Origin: Mucilaginibacter sp.
Lineage (GTDB): Bacteria > Bacteroidota > Bacteroidia > Sphingobacteriales > Sphingobacteriaceae
Direction: 5' to 3'
DNA length: 42,268 nt
Assembly: GCA_028288085.1 (NCBI GenBank)
Contig: JAQBOK010000098.1
Location: 1 to 42,268 of the forward strand
Under the pieces are notes generated by a model. It was not told where the DNA came from, did not search any database, and was given only the letters and a program-made list of their open reading frames with translations. Every line of letters starts with the position of its first letter. The first letter of the stretch is position 1. Made by a program: the position numbers and the translations under genes. This document shows positions 1 through 16,262 of the stretch, piece by piece.

Positions 1-1557
1 GGAGACATTGGTTTACTGATTGCTATTGCCATATTGTTCACCATGTACCATACTTTTGATCTGGACAACCTGTTCGGGTTAGGTAACCTGGTAAGTAATT
101 CAAAAATAGAGGATGGTTTATGGGTACTTAACACCAATTCAATGCCCGGCATAAACGGGGCCATCAGTCATACGTTTCAGCTTCCGGCTATATATCAATA
201 CATAGCCTTCGCAGGTATTCTATTAGCCGTTGCTGCTAAATCCGCCCAGTTTCCTTTACATACCTGGCTGCCCGATGCCATGGAAGGGCCAACTTCGGTT
301 TCCGCCCTCATTCATGCGGCAACCATGGTGGCCGCGGGTGTGTTTTTGTTAGGCAGGGTTTACCCCTTGTTTAACAGTTCAGAACTGGTAGTACTTGCGG
401 CAATAGGTTGTTTTACCGCTTTTATGGCGGCTACCATAGCACTCACTCAAAATGACTTGAAACGCATCCTGGCTTATTCTACCATATCACAATTGGGCTT
501 TATGGTAATGGCAATGGGCATTGGCGCCTATGCGTCATCCTTGTTTCACTTGGCAACACATGCCTTTTTCAAATGCCTTTTATTTTTAGTGGCAGGTATT
601 GTGATACACGAGGTACAACATATTAAAGATGAATACCAGTTGGATATCGACCCGCAAAATATCCTGTACATGGGCGGCCTGCGTAAAAAGATGCCGCTCA
701 CCTTTATAGCATGTGTTATAGGTGGCCTTGCATTGGTTGGTTTGCCGCTTACATCTGGTTATCTCTCTAAAGATGGGATTTTGATACAAGCTTTTGATTG
801 GGCCGAAGGCAAAAGCTGGTTATATAAGTTGGTGCCTGTTGGCGCATTGGTTACCAGTTGGCTTACGGCTTTTTACGTAGCGAGATTGATAGTCAAAGTG
901 TTTTTTGGCGAGTTTAGACTCTTAAAAGTTAATCCGGCAATTAAATTGCACATCAGCGATGGGGGGTGGCAATACCGCGTGCCATTAATATTTCTGGCAA
1001 TTGGCTGTTTATTTCCGCTGTTTTCAATCAACCCTGTTTTATATGAACATGCCTGGTTGTTCAATGGCTTTACCCGTAGTGACGGTCTCGACAGGGTCAA
1101 TATTTATCATACCATTATCCCGGCAGGGGTAAATATTTTAAGTATACTTATCATTTATTGGGCATACGCTGTTTATGTAAGGCAAAAGGCATTACCTTTC
1201 CCAGAAACTGGCTCCCTGTTTAGATTCTCTTATCACGAATGGTATATTGACAGGTTTTATGATCGCTACGTAGTAACACCTGTATTGGGTTTAAGCAAAG
1301 CCGCCCAATGGTTTGATGGTAATATCATTGATGGTTTTATACATTTGCTGCAGCAAATAGGTATTGGCTTATCTGTTATTGCAGCGTGGACCGATAAGAA
1401 TATTGTCGACGGCATATTAAGTTTACTGGCATCAATAGTTTTGGGTATCGGGAATTTTGTCCGCAATTTCCAAAGCGGGAAAATACAATACTATTTGTTT
1501 AGCATGCTGGCGGTTATACTGGCCTTGTTTATTTTAAAAATACTGATCTGGACCTGA
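1..1557 (+). CDS. nuoL: NADH-quinone oxidoreductase subunit L (5' partial)
   Basis: Membrane antiporter-like subunit of respiratory complex I; it carries one of the proton channels and the long lateral helix. The frame is open from base 1, so the gene starts outside the window and the first ATG at 34 is internal. The visible 518 residues are almost all hydrophobic helices and include the family signature HTWLPDAMEGPTSVSALIHA, followed by a second conserved stretch with ALTQNDLKRILAYSTISQLG. The hydrophobic C-terminal tail fits the lateral helix and terminal anchor of NuoL. The stop overlaps the nuoM start by one base (TGATG), indicating translational coupling. About 100-130 N-terminal residues are missing, judged from usual NuoL length. 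The family call is secure. Confidence 0.97.
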   Translation, partial: GDIGLLIAIAILFTMYHTFDLDNLFGLGNLVSNSKIEDGLWVLNTNSMPGINGAISHTFQLPAIYQYIAFAGILLAVAAKSAQFPLHTWLPDAMEGPTSVSALIHAATMVAAGVFLLGRVYPLFNSSELVVLAAIGCFTAFMAATIALTQNDLKRILAYSTISQLGFMVMAMGIGAYASSLFHLATHAFFKCLLFLVAGIVIHEVQHIKDEYQLDIDPQNILYMGGLRKKMPLTFIACVIGGLALVGLPLTSGYLSKDGILIQAFDWAEGKSWLYKLVPVGALVTSWLTAFYVARLIVKVFFGEFRLLKVNPAIKLHISDGGWQYRVPLIFLAIGCLFPLFSINPVLYEHAWLFNGFTRSDGLDRVNIYHTIIPAGVNILSILIIYWAYAVYVRQKALPFPETGSLFRFSYHEWYIDRFYDRYVVTPVLGLSKAAQWFDGNIIDGFIHLLQQIGIGLSVIAAWTDKNIVDGILSLLASIVLGIGNFVRNFQSGKIQYYLFSMLAVILALFILKILIWT

Positions 1558-3161
1558 TGAACATATTATCACTGCTCATATTTACACCTTTGCTGTTTGG
1601 CTTGCTTATTTTGCTGCTGCCATCCGCCTGGCGTGCAAGTTTTAAATACATTACCCTTGTTGCAACGCTGGTGCAATTAGCCATCAGTATATTAATGTAC
1701 TTGCATTTTAAAACGGGTGGAGGGTATGCCGGGATCAATAACGAGAGCCAGTTCCAGTTTATGCAGAAACTGCCATGGATAAACCTTAACCTGGGCAGCA
1801 TGGGCAAAATGCAGATCGATTATTTTGTGGGAATCGATGGAATATCCATTACGCTGGTACTAATGACCTCTGTAGTAATGGTCATCGCCGCTTTAGCATC
1901 CTGGGAAATTAAAAGTAACCTGAAGGGCTTTTTTAGTCTTTTCCTGTTGCTCAACATGGCCGTTATCGGTGTGTTTTGTGCGCTTGATTTCTTCCTGTTC
2001 TATATATTTTATGAATTGATGTTGTTGCCGCTTTACTTCCTGATCGGAATGTGGGGAGGCGCGCGCCGGGAATATGCCGCAATTAAGTTTTTTCTTTACA
2101 CTTTATTCGGGTCTGTTTTTATGTTGCTGGTGATGATCGGATTGTATTTATCAGTCAAAGATCCTGCAACAGGCAATCATACTTTCAACATCATACAAAT
2201 GATGAACCCTAATAATTATGATGCTGATTCCGTGTTCGCGGTATTGGGCCATAAAACTTTATTGGGTATGCCGGCGCGAACGGTGGGTTTTGTAGTGCTG
2301 TTTATTGCCTTTGCTATTAAAGTGCCGGTAGTGCCATTACATACATGGTTGCCAGATGCGCACGTAGAAGCGCCCACCCCGGTCTCTATCATATTGGCAG
2401 GTGTTTTATTAAAAATAGGTGGTTATGGTATTATCCGTATTTGCCTGGGGATATTCCCCGAAGTAGCGTCATCAGGTGCATTTTGGCTTGGATTGTTAGG
2501 GGTTATCTCCATCATATACGGTGCATTGAACGCGTTGGCCCAGCGAGACCTGAAACGAATGATCGCTTATTCGTCAGTATCACACATGGGGTTTGTTTTA
2601 TTGGGAATAGCCTCGCTAAATGCAGAAGGGATCAGCGGCGCGGTAATGCAAATGGTAAGCCACGGGTTTTTATCAACTATGCTGTTCTTTTTGGCCGGTG
2701 TGGTTTATAACCGCGTGCATGACAGGGACATTTACAATTTCCGAGGTCTGGGTACGCAGATGCCAAAATATACCGCCTTTATCATGATCGCGTTTTTTGC
2801 TTCATTGGGATTGCCCGGATTTTCGGCATTTATTGGTGAGGCATTTTCCTTGATCGGGGTTTTTGAATCACCATCTGTAAACGGTGCTTTGCCGTACTGG
2901 ATGGCTATTTGCGGAGCGGTAGGTATTTTATTAAGCGCGGCTTATTTCCTGTGGACATTGCAGCGCATGTTTTTTGGGTCGTTATCATTAAAAGGCGGCG
3001 AGGTATGGAAAACAGCGTTAGTTGACCTCAATGCGAGGGAAATGATCACCCTTTTACCGCTGGCGCTTTTAACATTGGTTTTAGGGGTAATGCCATCATT
3101 GGTATTTGATAAGATAAATGATTCGGTGCTGGCATTAATACATTTTATAGGGGCTAAATAA
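1557..3161 (+). CDS. nuoM: NADH-quinone oxidoreductase subunit M
   Basis: Antiporter-like proton-channel subunit of complex I in the inner membrane, 534 residues, slightly longer than the usual ~500. Visible hallmarks are the glutamate-bearing helix FYELMLLPLYFLIGMWGG, whose Glu is the conserved channel residue in this family, the motif HTWLPDAHVEAPTPVS and the RDLKRMIAYSSVSHMG segment. Its ATG overlaps the nuoL stop codon. In many genomes nuoN follows directly; here a secreted DUF4139 protein gene lies between them. The 117-base gap after it holds no clear terminator, so transcription into the next gene is plausible. Confidence 0.97.
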   Translation: MNILSLLIFTPLLFGLLILLLPSAWRASFKYITLVATLVQLAISILMYLHFKTGGGYAGINNESQFQFMQKLPWINLNLGSMGKMQIDYFVGIDGISITLVLMTSVVMVIAALASWEIKSNLKGFFSLFLLLNMAVIGVFCALDFFLFYIFYELMLLPLYFLIGMWGGARREYAAIKFFLYTLFGSVFMLLVMIGLYLSVKDPATGNHTFNIIQMMNPNNYDADSVFAVLGHKTLLGMPARTVGFVVLFIAFAIKVPVVPLHTWLPDAHVEAPTPVSIILAGVLLKIGGYGIIRICLGIFPEVASSGAFWLGLLGVISIIYGALNALAQRDLKRMIAYSSVSHMGFVLLGIASLNAEGISGAVMQMVSHGFLSTMLFFLAGVVYNRVHDRDIYNFRGLGTQMPKYTAFIMIAFFASLGLPGFSAFIGEAFSLIGVFESPSVNGALPYWMAICGAVGILLSAAYFLWTLQRMFFGSLSLKGGEVWKTALVDLNAREMITLLPLALLTLVLGVMPSLVFDKINDSVLALIHFIGAK

Positions 3162-3278: not shown

Positions 3279-5210
3279 ATGTTTAGAAAACTATTATTGG
3301 CTGTAACTATTTTTTTTATAACAATAGCAGCAAAAGCGGATGATCAAAAGGTCATTTCAAAAGTTCAGAAAGTTATTGTGTTTTTAAACGGGGCACAGGT
3401 AACACGTACAGCAATGGTAAATGTAAACACGGGCACATCAATATTAGTTTTTGAGAATATTTCTCCCGGCATTGATGTGCAAAGTATACAGGTACATGCC
3501 AATGGCGGGTTTACTATACTATCTGTTAAGCATGAAATGAATTTTCTGAATGAGCAGGTTAAGCAAAAGCACCTGGAAGATCTAAGGGCACAACAAAAAG
3601 CAATAAGAGATAAGATCACCTTGAAAAGCAATTTTTTATCTATTTATGCTGAAGAGTCCAACATGCTGGTAAAGAACCAGGTAGTAAGCGGGCAAAATAC
3701 GGGTCTCGATATTATAAAATTAAAGCAGGCCCTGGATTTTCAAACCGAGCGCTTAGCGGATATCAGGAAAAAGGAGCAGGCGGTCAATGATGAAATTGAG
3801 GTTCTCAATACCGAATTGCTGAAATATAATCAGCAAATAGCCGATATAATGAAGGGAAGCAGCACGGCCACAAGTAATATATTGGTAACTGTATCCTCAA
3901 AAGCAGCTTTGGAAACCGAATTTACGTTGAATTATGTGGTGCACAATGCAAGCTGGTTCCCTACTTATGATATCCGTGCAAAAAATGTAAATAGCCCCAT
4001 CAGTATCTCTTATAAAGCCAACGTATCACAACAAAGCGGCGAAGACTGGAAAAATATTAAATTGACCCTGTCTACAGGCAACCCAACAGTAAGCGGAAGC
4101 AAACCAGAATTAAATCCTTATTACCTCAATTTTGGGATGTACTACTCCGCACCTGCCGGATCAGTAACAAGTGTTAGCGGTAAATTGATCGGTGGCGATG
4201 ACGGGCAGCCTATCATTGGCGCTACAGTTAAAGTAAAGGGTACATCTATAGGTGCTGTTACGGATGTAAATGGTAATTATTCTGTCCAATTACCGCGTAA
4301 CGCCCAGGCATTGCAGTTTTCATATATTGGATATGTAGGCAAAGTATTGCCTATTACTTCCGAACTAATAAATGTAAGGCTCGAGCCATCTGTAAGTAGT
4401 TTAAACGAGGTTGTGGTTACAGGGTATGCCACACAGCGTAAGTCGGACGCAACCGGTTCGGTTGCTTCTCTTGATGTGGGTACGCCCGGCAGCAGTAACA
4501 CTGTATATATTCGTGGCATAAGTTCTGAAAATTTACTGCAGGGTCAGGCAGCAGGAGTAGCCTTAACAACTATCCCAATCGGTGTAGATCAAACAGAAAA
4601 TCAAACCAATATCGAATTTAATATAGCTAATCCTTATTCTGTACCTAGCGATGGTAAACAATATACGGTGGAGATCAATCAGCTGGATATTAATGCAAGC
4701 TATCAGTATGTTGTTGCACCTAAATTAAGTACGGATGTGTTTTTAACCGCAAAGCTGACTGATTGGAATAAATATAATTTTTTGTCAGGCGAGGCCAACT
4801 TGTTTTTTGAAGGTACTTTTATTGGCAAATCATTGATTGATGTGCATGCTACTATTGACACCTTGAACCTTTCATTAGGTACTGACAAAAATATTGTAGT
4901 ATCCCGCACATCCTTAAAAGACCTTACAGAAAGGCAAAGCCTGGGCTCTAATAAAAAAGAAACACGTGACTGGCAGATAGAAATAAAGAACCGCAAAAAT
5001 CAGCCTGTAAGTTTATTGGTAGAAGACCAGGTGCCAGTTTCACAAAACTCTTCAATTGATGTGGAAACACAGGAGTTATCTGGTGGGCAACTGGATAAAA
5101 CTACCGGCAAAGTTATCTGGAGCCTGCCATTAAAAGCGCAGGACGATAAAAAAATAGAATTAAAATACCAGGTGAAATATCCTAAAAACCAATCGGTTAT
5201 CATACAATAG
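3279..5210 (+). CDS. Secreted DUF4140/DUF4139 (mucoidy inhibitor MuiA-like) protein with inserted carboxypeptidase-regulatory/SusC plug-like segment
   Basis: Exported protein of unknown function, 643 residues, with a signal peptide at about 1-20 ending in AAKA. Residues ~25-95 resemble DUF4140 (VIVFLNGAQVTRTA). Residues ~90-190 are charged and look coiled-coil. From ~200 the DUF4139 fold begins (NASWFPTYDIRA, GEDWKNIKLTLSTG) and it resumes from ~440 to the end. Between the halves, ~296-372 is a carboxypeptidase-regulatory-like domain (GATVKVKGTSIGAVTDVNG, SYIGY). It is followed by EVVVTGYATQRK at ~377-388 and a short plug-like stretch with VYIRGISS, both typical of SusC/RagA outer-membrane transporters. 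No TonB-dependent barrel follows. The gene sits between nuoM and nuoN, and nuoN starts 6 bases after its stop, so it is very likely co-transcribed with complex I genes. The function is not known to me. Confidence 0.88.
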   Translation: MFRKLLLAVTIFFITIAAKADDQKVISKVQKVIVFLNGAQVTRTAMVNVNTGTSILVFENISPGIDVQSIQVHANGGFTILSVKHEMNFLNEQVKQKHLEDLRAQQKAIRDKITLKSNFLSIYAEESNMLVKNQVVSGQNTGLDIIKLKQALDFQTERLADIRKKEQAVNDEIEVLNTELLKYNQQIADIMKGSSTATSNILVTVSSKAALETEFTLNYVVHNASWFPTYDIRAKNVNSPISISYKANVSQQSGEDWKNIKLTLSTGNPTVSGSKPELNPYYLNFGMYYSAPAGSVTSVSGKLIGGDDGQPIIGATVKVKGTSIGAVTDVNGNYSVQLPRNAQALQFSYIGYVGKVLPITSELINVRLEPSVSSLNEVVVTGYATQRKSDATGSVASLDVGTPGSSNTVYIRGISSENLLQGQAAGVALTTIPIGVDQTENQTNIEFNIANPYSVPSDGKQYTVEINQLDINASYQYVVAPKLSTDVFLTAKLTDWNKYNFLSGEANLFFEGTFIGKSLIDVHATIDTLNLSLGTDKNIVVSRTSLKDLTERQSLGSNKKETRDWQIEIKNRKNQPVSLLVEDQVPVSQNSSIDVETQELSGGQLDKTTGKVIWSLPLKAQDDKKIELKYQVKYPKNQSVIIQ

Positions 5211-5216
5211 CGAATA

Positions 5217-6716
5217 ATGAACGATCTGTTACCTTTTTTACCCGGCCAGTTAGACCAAGTTTTGGGCAGCATCCCTTACTTTATGCCCGAAATTTACCTC
5301 TCTGTATTATTTGTCCTGGTATTGGTAACAGATCTTTTGTTTGGGAAAAATGCCGCATGGATGTGTAAGATACTGGCTTGCGCAGGGTTATTGGTGGTGA
5401 TTTTCAAAGACCTGGAGCAATTTCCGCTATTGCTTACCGGGACACATTTCCTTTTCAGCGAAATGCTGTTGCTGCATCAAACATCCTTAGTATTTAAGTT
5501 GCTTATTGACCTGTTTTCGTTTATTCTTTTACTCTATTTTGATTGGGATGATGATCTCAACGCTCATGGTAAAGGATTGTCAGACTTATATTCTATCTCC
5601 ATAGCCGCGATATTTGGTCTGCATTTAATGACCATGTCAGTTAACCTGTTATCAATCTATTTATCTGTCGAAATGGTTTCCATAGCTTCCTATCTAATGG
5701 TGGCGTATCGTTCCGAAAATGGGTGGAGCAGCGAAGCGGGCTTAAAATATGTGCTTTTCGGGGCCGCGTCTTCAGCCATTATGCTCTACGGTATATCCCT
5801 GCTTTATGGTTTTGGCGGAACGTTAAATTTGTTTAACGGTAACCTGATACCTAACTTATTGCAGGTGAACCCTATAGCCGTTTCTTTTGCAATGGTATTG
5901 TTTTTTGTGGGGATTGGCTTTAAGTTATCTTTTGTGCCAATGCACTTTTGGGTTCCCGATATTTACCAGGGGGCGCCTACACCGGTCACTGCGTTTTTAT
6001 CAACGGTACCTAAGATCGCGGCTTTCGGATTGCTGATAAATTTTCTGATACCTTTTATCTATTTCCCTAAATGGACAGCATTTGATTTTCGCTTGTTCTT
6101 ATCGGTCATCGGCATTGTGACCATGATAGCGGGCAACTTCGCGGCCACGTGGCAAAACAATATTAAAAGAATGTTAGCCTATTCCAGTATAGGGCATACA
6201 GGTTTTGCCTTAATGGCGCTGGTTACTTTTAGCACACAAGGAAAATCAGCTTTGATATTTTACCTTTTAGCTTATGCCCTCGCCAATATAGGCGCGTTAA
6301 TGCTGGCAAGCTATTTTGCTAATACAGCAAAGGCAGAGGACCTGGATTCTTATAAAGGATTGGGCCTTAAATATCCGGTTGCGGGGGTATCATTTGTCGT
6401 CATATTAATATCCCTTACCGGTTTACCTGTCACAGCCGGCTTTAACGGTAAATTATTAGTGTTTTCTTCAGTGTATTCTGTTTATCAGCAAAATCATGAT
6501 ATATGGCTACTATTACTGATGATAACAGGAGCGTTAACCACAGTAGTATCTTTATTCTATTATATTAAAATCCCGCTTAATTTATTTTTGCGCAAGCCCG
6601 AAAAAGCAGTCGATTACCCTTCATCATCTCCTTATTTGCTCATCACTTCGGCAATAATTGCATTATTGCTAATTTATTTAGGGATTTTGCCGGATATTTT
6701 GGCAAGATTTATGTAA
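5217..6716 (+). CDS. nuoN: NADH-quinone oxidoreductase subunit N
   Basis: Antiporter-like subunit of complex I in the inner membrane, 499 residues of mostly transmembrane helices. Family marks are SIYLSVEMVSIASYLMVAY in the early helices, HFWVPDIYQGAPTPVTAFLS in the discontinuous-helix region and NNIKRMLAYSSIGHTGFALM. The start is six bases after the DUF4139 gene stop, so translation is probably coupled. It appears to be the last nuo gene: a 111-base gap with a separate promoter candidate follows before the ammonium transporter. Confidence 0.97.
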   Translation: MNDLLPFLPGQLDQVLGSIPYFMPEIYLSVLFVLVLVTDLLFGKNAAWMCKILACAGLLVVIFKDLEQFPLLLTGTHFLFSEMLLLHQTSLVFKLLIDLFSFILLLYFDWDDDLNAHGKGLSDLYSISIAAIFGLHLMTMSVNLLSIYLSVEMVSIASYLMVAYRSENGWSSEAGLKYVLFGAASSAIMLYGISLLYGFGGTLNLFNGNLIPNLLQVNPIAVSFAMVLFFVGIGFKLSFVPMHFWVPDIYQGAPTPVTAFLSTVPKIAAFGLLINFLIPFIYFPKWTAFDFRLFLSVIGIVTMIAGNFAATWQNNIKRMLAYSSIGHTGFALMALVTFSTQGKSALIFYLLAYALANIGALMLASYFANTAKAEDLDSYKGLGLKYPVAGVSFVVILISLTGLPVTAGFNGKLLVFSSVYSVYQQNHDIWLLLLMITGALTTVVSLFYYIKIPLNLFLRKPEKAVDYPSSSPYLLITSAIIALLLIYLGILPDILARFM

Positions 6717-6761
6717 TTGGCAATAAAAATTAGGATTTATTAAATAATTTAAATCTACTCG

Positions 6762-6789
6762 TTTGTTTTTTAGGAAAAATATTAATTTG
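6762..6789 (+). promoter_or_regulatory. Candidate amt promoter (imperfect Bacteroidota type)
   Basis: TTTG at 6762-6765 is followed after 16 bases by TTAATTTG at 6782-6789, matching the Bacteroidota -7 consensus TAnnTTTG in all but one defined position. Transcription would begin about 30 bases before the amt ATG. The spacing is a little shorter than the usual ~19, so this is a moderate call. Confidence 0.4.
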
Positions 6790-6827
6790 CGCCTCGCAAA
6801 AGATAAACCAATTTTTTCCTAACATTC

Positions 6828-8135
6828 ATGAAACGTTATTTCCCTTTTACCCTCATTGTAGGTGTTTTACTGCTGACTTTTATGTTTCCCTCGGTTGAGT
6901 TTCACAATTCTGGCAATCCGAAATTTAATACAGGGGATATAGCCTGGATGTTAATGTCGACCGCTTTGGTTTTGATCATGACACCGGGACTTGCCTTTTT
7001 TTATGGGGGTATGGTAAATAAAAAGAATGTGATATCTACCATGTTGCAAAGTGTTATTTGTATGGTGATCATCACGGTGATGTGGGGGATATTTGGCTTT
7101 AGCCTGGCTTTTGGCGAATCGTTCCATGGCATCATCGGCAATCCATCCACCTATTTTATGATGAAAGGCATGTTGGGTAATGCAACGTGGCCATTGGCGC
7201 CAACAATACCCTTATTGCTTTTTGCGATGTACCAGTTAAAATTTGCCATTATCACACCGGCGCTAATCACCGGCGCTTTTGCCGAGCGTATCCGCTTTAA
7301 TAGCTATATATTATTCCTGTGTCTGTTTTCCATCTTTATCTTTTCACCTTTAGCACATGCTACCTGGCATCCGGATGGTATTCTGTCAAAGTTGGGTGTG
7401 CTTGATTTTGCGGGTGGAACTGTAGTACACATGTCTGCAGGATGGGCGGCTTTGGCATCAGCATTATATTTAAAACGCCGTAACGAAGCTAATCACGCAC
7501 CTGCCCGTGTAACCTACGTAATAATTGGTACCGGTTTATTGTGGTTTGGTTGGTTTGGTTTTAACGCAGGTTCGGCTTTTGGCGCAAATCATTTGGCGGT
7601 AAATGCATTGGCTACAAGCACAACAGCATCAGCAGCGGCGGGGTTAACCTGGATATTTTTTGATATGCTGCGGGGCAAAAAACCATCAGCTATGGGTACC
7701 TGTATCGGTGCAGTTGTGGGTTTGGTTGCCATCACTCCGGCGGCAGGCTTTGTAACTATCCCGCACTCGCTGGCAATTGGTATCATATCGGCCGTAGTAA
7801 GTAACCTGGTGGTTGAATGGCGCACCCGTACATCAATCGATGATACGTTGGATGTATTTCCCTGCCACGGTGTAGGTGGTATGGTTGGGATGCTGCTAAC
7901 GGGGGTATTCGCCAATCAGAACGTGAATGCTGCTAACACAACCGGGAACGGCTTGTTCTTTGGCCAAACCCATTTGTTTTATGTGCAGTGTGTGGCATTA
8001 GTTGCAGTATCTATTTTTTCATTCTTCGGCTCATTGCTGCTATTAAAGATTGCCGATATGATCTCGCCGCTTCGCGTCTCTAAGGAAGAAGAGGAAATTG
8101 GCCTGGATATAAGTCAGCATGGCGAGCGATTGTAA
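6828..8135 (+). CDS. amt: Ammonium transporter (Amt/Rh family)
   Basis: Inner-membrane ammonium channel, 435 residues with about eleven or twelve hydrophobic helices and a first helix that may act as a signal sequence. The substrate-pore twin histidines are visible: one in VVHMSAGWAA and one in DVFPCHGVGGMVG. The motif TPGLAFFYGGMV in the second helix is typical. The short cytoplasmic C-tail (ISPLRVSKEEEEIGLDISQHGE) matches the region that contacts PII proteins in this family. No glnK/PII gene lies beside it in this window, unlike many glnK-amtB pairs; on this side it follows nuoN and precedes a non-coding gap. Confidence 0.96.
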   Translation: MKRYFPFTLIVGVLLLTFMFPSVEFHNSGNPKFNTGDIAWMLMSTALVLIMTPGLAFFYGGMVNKKNVISTMLQSVICMVIITVMWGIFGFSLAFGESFHGIIGNPSTYFMMKGMLGNATWPLAPTIPLLLFAMYQLKFAIITPALITGAFAERIRFNSYILFLCLFSIFIFSPLAHATWHPDGILSKLGVLDFAGGTVVHMSAGWAALASALYLKRRNEANHAPARVTYVIIGTGLLWFGWFGFNAGSAFGANHLAVNALATSTTASAAAGLTWIFFDMLRGKKPSAMGTCIGAVVGLVAITPAAGFVTIPHSLAIGIISAVVSNLVVEWRTRTSIDDTLDVFPCHGVGGMVGMLLTGVFANQNVNAANTTGNGLFFGQTHLFYVQCVALVAVSIFSFFGSLLLLKIADMISPLRVSKEEEEIGLDISQHGERL

Positions 8136-12472: not shown

Positions 12473-14098
12473 ATGATGAAAAAAGCCATTATTATCCTGT
12501 TTATTGCTTTTGCTAAACTTAGTGTGTTTGCACAACAGGGAGAAATGCTTGTTTATCACCCTATACAAACCGATAAAAGCGGCAATATTGTACCCTGGTT
12601 TAATCCCGATCCGGCTATAGCCTATGACCATAACCTGCATACTATATGGAGCTTTTGGTTTAACATGCGCAGGGATTTAAACGGGCTGCCTTATTATATG
12701 AACCACCAGGTATGGAATAAAAATATGGATGACCCGCGTGGCATCGGTGGCGACCAGTTTATGATGGCAATTTCCTCCTGGCGGTTATTATATGCCTATA
12801 CAGGAGATGAAAACATAAAATCGAATATCTATTTTCTGGCAGGCTACTATTTAACGCATGGCTTATCACCATCCAATTGCAAATGGCCTGACATCCCCTT
12901 TCCTTATAATACGCTGATCTATTCGGGGATATATGATGGTGATATGCGTAATGGTAAAGATATAGCGCAGCCTGACAAAGCAGGTTCATTTGGCCTGGAA
13001 CTGATCCATGTATATAAAATAAAAAATGACCCCGTATTTCTGGACGCGGCTATCAAGATCGCAAACACACTTGCCGCTAACGTAAAAACCGGCAATAATG
13101 AACACTCGCCGCTGCCGTTCAAAATAAATGTATTTACTGGTGAAACGCCTTTGCTGAACCTGCAGACTAAAAGCGAAGGCAGGTCAATTGATACCGCTTG
13201 TTATACCAGCAACCTTACAGGAACGCTGCAAATGTTTCTTGACCTCATACAACTCAATAAAGGCAACGTAACAGCTTACAAAATTGCTGCAGGTAAAATC
13301 CTGGTCTGGCTTAAAAAATATCCTGTCCAGACTAATAAATGGGGACCGTTTTTTGAAGATGTAGCAGAGTGGAGTCAAACGCAGATAAACGCCATGACCT
13401 GTGCAAGGTATATGATGGAGCATCCACAGTATTTTCCCGACTGGAAATTGCAGGTTAAAAATATCATTAACTGGGTGCACACCAATTTTGCCAACACGCA
13501 ATGGAAAAAATATGGTGTGGTAGTTACCAACGAACAGACCATTTACCCGGTTCCGGCTAATAGCCATAGTTCCAGGCAAGCTGCGGACGAACTGTTGTAT
13601 GGATCGCTAAGTGGCGATACTTCCCTTTATAAAAATGCGATAAGAGAACTTAACTGGGCCACTTATATGGTTGATTTTGACGGTAAAAATTGTTTCCCCA
13701 CCGATGAGCCCTGGCTTACTGATGGTTATGGTGACTATGTACGACATTACTTGCGGGCTATGGCCACCTATCCGGTTTTAGCGCCTGTTGAAAATCATAT
13801 TATTGCCAGCACATCAGTCATTCAGCAGGCAGATTATAAAGATCACTTTAAAAAATTCCTGAGTGTCGATTTTAATAAAACCGATACCAATAAAGTACGC
13901 CTTTACTACCGCACCTATGATAATGATGGGACGGAAGAAATTAAACTAAAAACCCGGCCATCGGCTATTCTGTTAAATGATAGTGCTTTAAAGGACACTG
14001 CAGATGGTGAGGGCTACACCTGGACCACGCTCGAAAAAGGCGGAGGCATTTTATGGGTAAGAAGAAAGAACGGAAACAAAGTGCTTATTATGGAATAA
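12473..14098 (+). CDS. Secreted alpha/alpha-barrel-like protein, possible glycoside-active enzyme
   Basis: 541-residue exported protein with signal peptide at ~1-21 (ending VFA/QQ). Residues ~60-440 have recurring aromatic-rich helical pairs (WSFWFNMRRDLNG, QFMMAISSWRLLYAY, GSFGLELIHVYK, DVAEWSQTQINAMTCARYM), the look of a six-hairpin toroid as found in many polysaccharide-active hydrolases and epimerases. Acidic residues in WPDIPFPYNTLIYSGIYDGD and EDVAEW could be catalytic, but I cannot assign a family. The ~100 C-terminal residues look beta-rich. It begins ~260 bases from the divergent Gfo/Idh gene and ends 8 bases from the convergent HTH-lectin gene. It is probably a glycan- or glycoside-acting protein, by fold and context only. 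Confidence 0.7.
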   Translation: MMKKAIIILFIAFAKLSVFAQQGEMLVYHPIQTDKSGNIVPWFNPDPAIAYDHNLHTIWSFWFNMRRDLNGLPYYMNHQVWNKNMDDPRGIGGDQFMMAISSWRLLYAYTGDENIKSNIYFLAGYYLTHGLSPSNCKWPDIPFPYNTLIYSGIYDGDMRNGKDIAQPDKAGSFGLELIHVYKIKNDPVFLDAAIKIANTLAANVKTGNNEHSPLPFKINVFTGETPLLNLQTKSEGRSIDTACYTSNLTGTLQMFLDLIQLNKGNVTAYKIAAGKILVWLKKYPVQTNKWGPFFEDVAEWSQTQINAMTCARYMMEHPQYFPDWKLQVKNIINWVHTNFANTQWKKYGVVVTNEQTIYPVPANSHSSRQAADELLYGSLSGDTSLYKNAIRELNWATYMVDFDGKNCFPTDEPWLTDGYGDYVRHYLRAMATYPVLAPVENHIIASTSVIQQADYKDHFKKFLSVDFNKTDTNKVRLYYRTYDNDGTEEIKLKTRPSAILLNDSALKDTADGEGYTWTTLEKGGGILWVRRKNGNKVLIME

Positions 14099-14106
14099 AA
14101 CGGTAG

Positions 14107-15366
14107 TCAAAAGGCTTTGAATACGGTTTTATCGTGGCCATCCAGGTTAATGTTGCGTACAGACCCTGTACCCTGGAAACTATAAGCCATGCCAACTATG
14201 TTTTCATTATATAGGGGTAACGGAGTTTCGTAAACTAATTTATCATCAACGTAATATTGGATCTTACCCGGAACACTACGGCAGCTAACTTTAACCCATT
14301 GAGAAAGATCGGCACCAAAACCAGACAAGTCAGTGTTCTTTCCCGAAACAAAATAACGACCGTTTAACAAACTCAGGTTGGATACACAGCCTTTGGCCGA
14401 TAGCTGGATGATTACCGGCGTGTTGTCTGTGAAAAGGATGATCTGCAAAAATTGGCAGGCAGCAGCGCCATCATGGTAATCGTTTTTCACTTCAGCCCTG
14501 AATGAAAAATCTTTAAGGGAAACAGGGATAAAATTGCCAACATTATAAAATTCAACCATGGGCGGCTGTGGGCTAAGAGCGATATTTTTTTGGTTGATAG
14601 CCGATATAGGCAACTGTAACTTATCCTTATTGATAAACTCATCAGGACTTAAATAAACAGGCACCGGCTGATGAGCGATCAAGCCAAGCCAGCCGTTGGT
14701 GGGTATTAATAACATACGCTCTTTCACCACTTTGTTGTTTATACCAAGTTTAGCATGATAAAATCCGGGCACATAATAAATTGAGGTATACTGGTGCAGG
14801 TTTTTATCTATCAGTACACGTGTTCCCGGATCCCAGGATTGTTGAATGAAAACAGAATCTTTTGGATTAGTTTTAACATCATAGTTAAAAACTACTGAGT
14901 TGGGAATTGTCCGGGTAACAGTATGCGCGTCAAATGAAAAAGTGCTCTTTGTAAGCGATGCAGGTGTTTTCTTAACATACATACTTACCAGGCTGATGGT
15001 AATAACAGCAATAATAACCAGTGCTATTTTTAACCGCCATCCATGCTCTTGTTTGGGCTTAGCTACCAGGTGTTCCATCTCTTTTGGATTTGCTTCAGTA
15101 GCGGGATTTTGACGGGCAAATGTTCTCCAGTTTTCAAACCCGGCAAACCTGGCCAGCGTATCTAAGGTGGTAGTGCTTGGCAGGTGGTTATATTCTACCC
15201 GCCCCCATATTCTTCTCAATGTACTTGCACTAAGTGAAACCCTGGTTTTTTCTAAAATGAGTTCGTTAAGGATTTCAAAATCCTTGCTTTGCCAGGTAGA
15301 CGCGCCACCCCAATCGAGCTGTCGTTCAATAATGATCAATAATTGTTTTATATCAGAAGCATTCAT
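14107..15366 (-). CDS. Single-pass membrane protein: cytoplasmic HTH-like domain, PKD-like and lectin-like periplasmic domains
   Basis: 419 residues. Residues ~1-85 are cytoplasmic, with a helix-turn-helix-like stretch SLSASTLRRIWGRVEYN followed by TTTLDTLARFAGFENWRTF, a pattern seen in Bacteroidota proteins with Xre/Cro-like N-termini. Residues ~113-131 form the only transmembrane helix (LKIALVIIAVITISLVSMY), and the flanking charges place the C-terminus outside. Residues ~150-226 look PKD/Ig-like (SWDPGTRVLIDKN, YYVPGFYHAKLGIN). Residues ~245-415 look like a concanavalin-A/LamG lectin fold (FSFRAEVKNDYHDG, WVKVSCRSVPGKIQYYVDD). This fits a one-component sensor that binds a carbohydrate outside and DNA inside. 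The next gene upstream, divergently transcribed, encodes a secreted lectin-fold protein. No kinase or sigma factor is attached. The DNA-binding role is inferred. Confidence 0.75.
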   Translation of the reverse strand: MNASDIKQLLIIIERQLDWGGASTWQSKDFEILNELILEKTRVSLSASTLRRIWGRVEYNHLPSTTTLDTLARFAGFENWRTFARQNPATEANPKEMEHLVAKPKQEHGWRLKIALVIIAVITISLVSMYVKKTPASLTKSTFSFDAHTVTRTIPNSVVFNYDVKTNPKDSVFIQQSWDPGTRVLIDKNLHQYTSIYYVPGFYHAKLGINNKVVKERMLLIPTNGWLGLIAHQPVPVYLSPDEFINKDKLQLPISAINQKNIALSPQPPMVEFYNVGNFIPVSLKDFSFRAEVKNDYHDGAAACQFLQIILFTDNTPVIIQLSAKGCVSNLSLLNGRYFVSGKNTDLSGFGADLSQWVKVSCRSVPGKIQYYVDDKLVYETPLPLYNENIVGMAYSFQGTGSVRNINLDGHDKTVFKAF

Positions 15367-15602: not shown

Positions 15603-16262
15603 ATGAGTAAGATACAACTATCATTTATTAAAATATTCGCATTACTGGTATCATTTACATGCTGCGTTTTTACTGCCGGCGCCCAGCAAAGCAAGCATTA
15701 TAACCTGGTTCAATTGCTGAAAGATAATAAACTGGTAACCACACCGGGCCAGCAAACGCAGGTGATTGATAGGCAGAAACAGGCAATATCAACCAAAGGG
15801 ATTGTATGGTTAAAAGGGGTTGATTTTAAACAAGGCACCATTGAGGTTGATTTGCGCGGAAAAGATGTTTTTCTGCAAAGCTTTTTGGGGATAGCTTTCC
15901 ACGCACCGGATACTGCAACTTATGATGTGGTATATTTTAGGCCCTTTAATTTTCGGCATGCCGATACCCTGCGAAGGAAGTGGTCGGTACAATATATGAG
16001 CATTCCCGACTATGATTATGTCAGGTTGCGAAAGGAACATCCACTGGTTTATGAAAATGCGGTCGACCCCGTTCCCAATCCTAATGATTGGTTTCATGCA
16101 ACAATCGTTGTGAAAGATGATTGGATAACAATTTATGTCGATCATTCAGAGAAAGCTTCCCTGAAGGTCAAGTTACTAAACAACCGTAAAGATGGGATGA
16201 TTGGTTTATGGACGTCTCCACCGCTAAGTGACGACTTTGCCAATTTAACACTTACTCAATAA
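15603..16262 (+). CDS. Secreted concanavalin-A-like/DUF1080-like protein
   Basis: 219 residues with a signal peptide at ~1-27 (ending AGA/QQ). The rest is beta-rich with the spacing of a lectin/laminin-G jelly roll: WLKGVDFKQGTIEVDLRGKD, LGIAFHAPD, YDVVYFRPFNFR, then NDWFHATIVVKDDWITIYVDHS and a closing GMIGLWTSPPLSDDFANLTL. The layout resembles the DUF1080 family (3-keto-disaccharide hydrolase fold) and LamG-type binding modules. I cannot see catalytic residues that decide between enzyme and binding protein. It has its own promoter candidate and is followed 74 bases later by another exported protein on the same strand. Confidence 0.75.
   Translation: MSKIQLSFIKIFALLVSFTCCVFTAGAQQSKHYNLVQLLKDNKLVTTPGQQTQVIDRQKQAISTKGIVWLKGVDFKQGTIEVDLRGKDVFLQSFLGIAFHAPDTATYDVVYFRPFNFRHADTLRRKWSVQYMSIPDYDYVRLRKEHPLVYENAVDPVPNPNDWFHATIVVKDDWITIYVDHSEKASLKVKLLNNRKDGMIGLWTSPPLSDDFANLTLTQ

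Follow-up and report, generated by a model that had tools for sequence, protein, structure and literature searches.

The TonB protein is generally regarded as serving outer-membrane transporters. For one of them, the SusC/RagA transporter Bt1763, the accessible text of PMC7782687 places the Ton box at 82-DEVVVTG-88, in an unstructured stretch that follows an N-terminal extension (NTE) of Pfam family 13715, and reports that deleting this box or substituting it with alanine causes a growth defect like that of SusD loss. The same text calls the function of SusC NTEs unknown, possibly the choice of a TonB, and describes the NTE as structurally distinct from the STN domain. In STN-domain transporters with anti-sigma partners, too, a small periplasmic domain stands before a Ton box. 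The MuiA protein of Pseudomonas aeruginosa is reported to be under the control of the ECF sigma factor SbrI and is linked to envelope stress, and its inhibition of mucoidy or alginate has been both reported and questioned (PMC10418997, accessible text); a literature search found no mucoidy or alginate data on MuiA of Bacteroidota. Each of the components considered here is known; a description of their combination, a transporter handle on a non-transporter, was not found in the titles and abstract openings searched, a scope that most subscription journals and bioRxiv fall outside.

The window analysed here is a stretch of 42,268 nucleotides from Mucilaginibacter sp., and its open reading frame 3279-5210 encodes a MuiA-type protein, which has both domains of that family in the family's order, DUF4140 (PF13600) and then DUF4139 (PF13598), and scores 291 bits against the NCBIfam MuiA model TIGR02231, well above the cut-off of 112.6. 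The single Pfam match to DUF4139 (residues 216-636, E 5.1e-58) runs across an insert. Within it, CarbopepD_reg_2 (PF13715) matches residues 299-380 (E 5.8e-17, 61.9 bits against a cut-off of 32.2), positions 3-128 of the 981 in the SusC/RagA model TIGR04056 align with residues 299-430, and SusC, RagA and isolated NTE chains of the PDB match inside residues 288-431 (best E 3e-18). Residues 296-435 are therefore not ordinary DUF4139 sequence, a reading rejected because of these matches, and the interruption of DUF4139 by a carboxypeptidase-regulatory-like domain and EVVVTGY, with no barrel following, had been correctly recognized in the earlier note. The protein is nevertheless no SusC/RagA member by TIGR04056 (106.1 bits, cut-off 368.25); Pfam searches gave neither a Plug (PF07715) nor an STN match, and the Ton box leads through an unstructured tail into DUF4139, with no outer-membrane beta-barrel. 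The features are collected in Table 1.

Table 1. Features of the muiA locus in the window
Feature	Position	Strand	Basis
Upstream neighbour, nuoM-like (Proton_antipo_M)	1557..3161	+	Pfam, synteny
MuiA-type protein with internal SusC N-terminal module, 643 aa	3279..5210	+	ORF, Pfam, NCBIfam
Likely type I signal peptide, residues 1-20	3279..3338	+	Judged by eye; model helix 3-15
DUF4140, residues 32-118	3372..3632	+	Pfam
Long two-helix hairpin between DUF4140 and DUF4139, residues 90-192	3546..3854	+	AlphaFold model
DUF4139 first part, residues 216-272	3924..4094	+	Pfam, AlphaFold model
Flexible linker, residues 273-297	4095..4169	+	pLDDT <50 at 272-294
SusC-type NTE / CarbopepD_reg_2, residues 298-371	4170..4391	+	Pfam, PDB, fold match
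Ton-box-like motif LNEVVVTGY, residues 375-383	4401..4427	+	Likeness to Bt1763 DEVVVTG; conservation
Unstructured tail with plug words SDATGSVAS, YIRGISS, LQGQAAGV, residues 384-440	4428..4598	+	Sequence, AlphaFold model
DUF4139 second part, residues 444-636	4608..5186	+	Pfam, AlphaFold model
Downstream neighbour, nuoN-like (Proton_antipo_M)	5217..6716	+	Pfam; 6 bases after muiA stop

In the AlphaFold model the NTE is confidently folded (block pLDDT 78-90) between unstructured stretches at 272-294 and 374-442, the Ton box stretch lying at a pLDDT of about 30-45; with an overall pTM of only 0.46, the relative placement of the domains is not interpreted. Among solved structures, the modelled NTE is matched by the NTEs of BT3090 (crystal, 9hfj; Z 14.4, 79 residues aligned, 1.8 Å) and of the levan transporter (NMR, 6ytc; Z 11.6, 72 aligned, 1.5 Å), and the structure search found it to resemble SusC NTEs and carboxypeptidase TTL domains. 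As in SusC/RagA transporters such as Bt1763, an NTE of this fold is directly followed by a Ton box, LNEVVVTGY standing where DEVVVTG does with respect to the NTE, and by scraps of plug; unlike in those transporters, a proper plug domain and a barrel are lacking and the module is internal to DUF4139 instead of N-terminal. The six proteobacterial and actinobacterial MuiA relatives examined differ as well, with a short linker that lacks the module in the DUF4139 hinge. The plug-like stretch proposed for the tail holds in part: SusC plug words are present, but the tail is predicted to be unstructured, draws no Plug match, and has IRGISS before LQGQAAGV. The model of an NTE-less MuiA, that of M. 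pedocola, had no PDB match at E <=0.001; it had weak hits among MacA adaptors and among AP2 mu subunits, which were not used. The MuiA body (model m45d1a95b5dc5, BFVD) matches predicted giant-virus proteins of Tupanvirus, Pithovirus and Pandoravirus, one of them annotated as DUF4139.

In an alignment of 168 distinct MuiA proteins (66 from the genus and 102 others), the NTE occupies the insert site in 77, that is, in 48 of the 66 genus proteins and, among the matches listed, in 29 of the 102 others (local profile above 10 bits); since the sample from outside the genus consists of the best matches listed, these fractions are not prevalences. Its recurrence at the same site within the genus led us to reject an artefact or chimera, and its occurrence outside speaks against the lineage-specific insertion that had been suggested. 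Orthologs without it are found both in the genus (18/66) and, among the matches listed, beyond it (73/102). The extent of the insert varies widely, from NTE, box and a Plug domain over the Pfam cut-off (L175, L177), through Plug over the same cut-off without NTE (L190, L192, L197), to the box alone (L183, L199, L209) or nothing; other families in which a box occurs without NTE include those of L199, L209, L212, L222 and L192. A plasmid-borne MuiA of Persicobacter, also a member of Bacteroidota, has an NTE-like segment and a box, the one Aureibacter protein examined has no box, and the score matrix described below found none in six MuiA linkers from Pseudomonadota and Actinomycetota.

No other part of the insert is as conserved as the Ton box. 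Over the 48 genus members with an NTE, mean column identity is 0.72 at residues 374-384, 0.51 in the NTE and 0.39 in the tail, with single values of 0.96 at L375, 0.92 at E377, 0.92 at V378, 0.88 at G382 and 1.00 at Y383; identity spans 0.84-1.00 at L375, E377, V378, V379, G382 and Y383, compared with 0.12-0.68 in the five columns before and the eight after. Such a pattern points elsewhere than to the structural function that the SusC fragment had been supposed to have acquired. Boxes were scored with a 10-residue matrix from 34 SusC receptors, whose own 5th-percentile score is 17.5 bits, at a threshold of 8 bits chosen by us; the matrix replaced a loose regular expression, E[VIL][VIA][VIASTM], that had matched controls too often (52 of 80 N-terminal segments). 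At least 8 bits were reached by 47 of the 48 genus linkers with an NTE (shuffled mean 1.28) and by 13 of the 18 without (shuffled mean 0.14; 0 in either flanking segment), and, among the matches listed for other Bacteroidota, by 24 of 29 linkers with an NTE (shuffled mean 0.50) and 15 of 73 without (shuffled mean 0.36), the N-terminal control segments giving 3/73 in this last group and 0 in the others.

A cut at 17.5 bits is passed by only 4 of 18 NTE-less linkers in the genus and, among the matches listed, 10 of 73 elsewhere. Two more NTE-less genus linkers lie at 5.6-6.3 bits (LGEVVVTKSL, LSEVVVSKAV), and three genus members (L150, L154, L155) have a degenerate box below 8 bits; a box-like motif is nevertheless kept by at least one member of each NTE-less genus clade. 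Proteins that have an NTE and score below 8 bits are L132, the sole case in the genus, and five of the 29 outside it (among the matches listed). Since 58 of the 73 NTE-less proteins outside the genus, again among the matches listed, are without a box, the box is not needed for MuiA function generally. Its codons change in some pairs as much as the rest, 11 codons being too few to judge.

The material around the box turns over. On a FastTree phylogeny of the columns outside the insert, NTE state changes 12 times overall and four times in the genus; such counts cannot separate gain from loss, but the nearest outgroup, L163, has an NTE, which favours losses, and the roughly four changes in the genus are probably of this kind. 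Where measurable, the NTE is under purifying selection, with dN/dS of 0.00-0.32 in 8 of 11 genus pairs that have it (the other 3 are saturated), in most pairs above the values of the DUF domains (0.01-0.09 where computable). In 8 of 26 close genus pairs, defined by both flanks having at least 80% DNA identity, the NTE is less identical than the lower flank by 12 points or more; L159 recurs in three of the eight and L127 in two, so that the events are fewer than the pairs and not independent. For L115 and L124 the flanks are 87 and 90% identical and the NTE 59%, and L115 groups with L124 by its flanks (99) and with L113 by its NTE (99), a conflict that points to exchange between lineages. To compare single with repeated capture, a tree of the NTE itself was built from 68 rows and 106 columns; of the SusC rows it used every other one, of the genus 11 rows, L186 and L187 were left out, and L274, L275 and L287 were taken out of the SusC rows because they are muiA. 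In it the muiA NTEs do not form one clade when the topology is free (6 changes), and a single muiA clade, of 37 rows versus 31, was not rejected (p-AU 0.177).

The divergence of the NTE in those close pairs, as if it had been exchanged or diversified, would also suit a role in which the NTE, with its transthyretin/Ig-like fold, is the working part, offering a diversified binding surface, for example for glycans, SusC-type receptors or other envelope proteins, and the box is a passenger. The confident fold and its matches to SusC NTEs and carboxypeptidase TTL domains agree with such a role, but conservation is lower in the columns of the NTE than in those of the box, and the genus members that lack the NTE have mostly kept the box-like motif, which makes this explanation improbable in our estimation.

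The insert of the L132 MuiA (5093-7222, minus strand) holds the plug piece of a different TonB receptor type. An open frame of 988 aa in the same genome is 68% identical to this piece over 108 of the 112 residues searched, and L111, the sister of L132, has kept a scrap of it. In the SusC plug an IRG-type word follows an LQG-type word. The reverse order, as in the window protein, was seen in none of the four SusC receptors that could be checked; an IRG-before-LQG pattern occurs in 4 of 27 rows, two of which (L102, L120) are artefacts of the pattern (VTGYSS), so that it is genuine only in the window protein and L145. Plug words also stand ahead of the Ton box in L192 and L222, and an IRG-like word does so in L166. 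Most rows keep the SusC order, and nested deletion therefore accounts for most of the variety. IRG.SS is present in 30 and LQGR.AG in 19 of the 48 genus linkers with an NTE, and since plug words persist in part of the rows, the Ton box is not the sole retained piece.

Several of these observations would be expected if the DUF4139 hinge tolerates inserts and abundant SusC pieces land there by recombination, leaving scars without function: the insert ranges from box only to a Plug domain, the L132 piece has its likeness in the same genome, some plug words are in non-SusC order, the NTE is absent from most non-genus proteins among the matches listed, and the window protein has matches at 42 other places in the genome, almost all of them confined to the NTE region. 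A functionless piece fits neither the purifying selection seen on the NTE wherever it is measurable nor the much stronger conservation of box columns compared with those around them. Nor does it fit a box-like motif in every NTE-less clade, or the NTE-box module that is also found in an envelope family not related to MuiA (VWA/YfbK_C, below), and this explanation is unlikely.

The earlier note had also tied the protein to complex I. The gene does lie between nuoM and nuoN, six bases before the latter, as had been stated; the flanking frames all match PF00361, and the names nuoL, nuoM and nuoN rest on gene order and on that note rather than on a subunit-specific model. Of 120 genus genomes, 67 have a DUF4139 match, the one of the window among them (60 of the 96 with completeness of at least 90% and contamination of at most 5%). 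Of the loci in the other 66, all but that of G452 were compared, and in 63 of these 65 muiA is immediately preceded by nuoM and followed by nuoN; the exceptions are L118, at a contig start, and L162, with a broken gene. At most 30 bp separate muiA from nuoN in 63 of 64 measurable loci, and the gap from nuoM to muiA has a median of 76 bp. The remaining 53 of 120 genomes, not all of them complete, have no DUF4139 match; in 10 of 11 genomes without the gene that were checked, with G003 the remaining one, the nuoM-type match ends 64-274 bp from nuoN. Outside the genus, nuo genes are beside muiA at none of 35 loci (stretches of about 8.5-12.5 kb), so that the linkage across relatives to be looked for in a complex I subunit or assembly factor is present in the genus and absent beyond it. 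Because the 18 NTE-less genus proteins share the nuo placement, insert and operon placement are independent, and a complex I role for the insert was rejected on this ground. The link to complex I, a matter of operon placement at the level of the genus, stands apart from the mechanism proposed here. Farther along the window, the frames 12473-14098 (+), 14107-15366 (-) and 15603-16262 (+), of 541, 419 and 219 aa, have no Pfam match at 0.001. Scans of the window for Rfam families at the gathering threshold and for tRNAs found neither.

The box on MuiA, the clades that have the box only, the turnover around it and its predicted flexibility lead us to propose, at somewhat less than an even chance, that the loop of MuiA acts as a docking handle for TonB, one acquired from transporters, with the box as the element under selection. 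The recurrence of the module in the VWA/YfbK_C family (below), the purifying selection on the NTE where measurable and the 14 TonB_C matches in the window's genome agree with this proposal. The protein, a MuiA-family envelope protein that is presumably periplasmic, bears the transporter N-terminal module on a hinge loop between two DUF4139 strands, the folded NTE coming first and the Ton box after it, unstructured and exposed. As in SusC, a TonB protein of the cell would use its C-terminal domain to pair with LNEVVVTGY, and the NTE would help to choose the TonB partner, a role floated for SusC NTEs in the accessible text of PMC7782687. MuiA might thereby be tethered to, or pulled from, the inner membrane, which would agree with the envelope stress to which its Pseudomonas counterpart has been linked. 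Selection would act on the Ton box, the surrounding NTE and plug pieces being gained, eroded and exchanged. TonB binding seems the most economical reading of the handle, one that we hold tentatively, with belief and doubt almost in balance. A conserved Ton box on barrel-less proteins, if true, would extend the docking of TonB to non-transporters; the SusC NTE would be given a natural experiment, in which the same gene has NTE and box, box alone or neither, and the DUF4139 family of Bacteroidota would gain a testable partner.

Other barrel-less proteins have the same pair of elements. In the window's own genome, the VWA/YfbK_C protein P0002 (L383:3595-5625, +, contig C28) has an N-terminal SusC NTE and the box QLSEVVVTTGLGIKR; like MuiA it is a non-transporter with NTE and Ton box, and it differs in that the module is near the N-terminus and the body (VWA, YfbK_C) is unrelated. 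A sample of 61 Bacteroidota genomes yielded 18 VWA/YfbK_C proteins (including L411-L428) in 15 of them; 13 of these proteins match the NTE (L424 weakly), and seven have a box of at least 8 bits. The neighbouring gene of P0002 encodes P0003 (L383:1634-2953, -, contig C28), a protein of 439 aa that unites in one chain, in this order, the plug word VLQGKVEGV, an NTE, the box SEVVVTKSSGV and TonB_C, and that by eye has a membrane segment and an anti-sigma-like look.

P0003 bears on a further explanation, in which the box sequesters TonB as a decoy or the module talks to anti-sigma factors in an envelope-stress circuit. The control of P. aeruginosa muiA by an ECF sigma/anti-sigma pair (PMC10418997, accessible text) points in the same direction, as does an ECF sigma gene (L171:7067-7603, +) directly downstream of the L171 MuiA gene, which recalls control by SbrI; but this neighbourhood evidence consists of single loci, no sigma factor is among the window neighbours scanned, and we consider such a circuit very unlikely. 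Returning to docking on TonB, we see it as possible, if rather doubtful, that Bacteroidota have a whole class of barrel-less envelope proteins (MuiA, VWA/YfbK and an anti-sigma-like TonB_C protein) whose NTE-Ton box would be engaged, and perhaps mechanically energised, by TonB-ExbBD, the handle spreading from gene to gene as a portable module.
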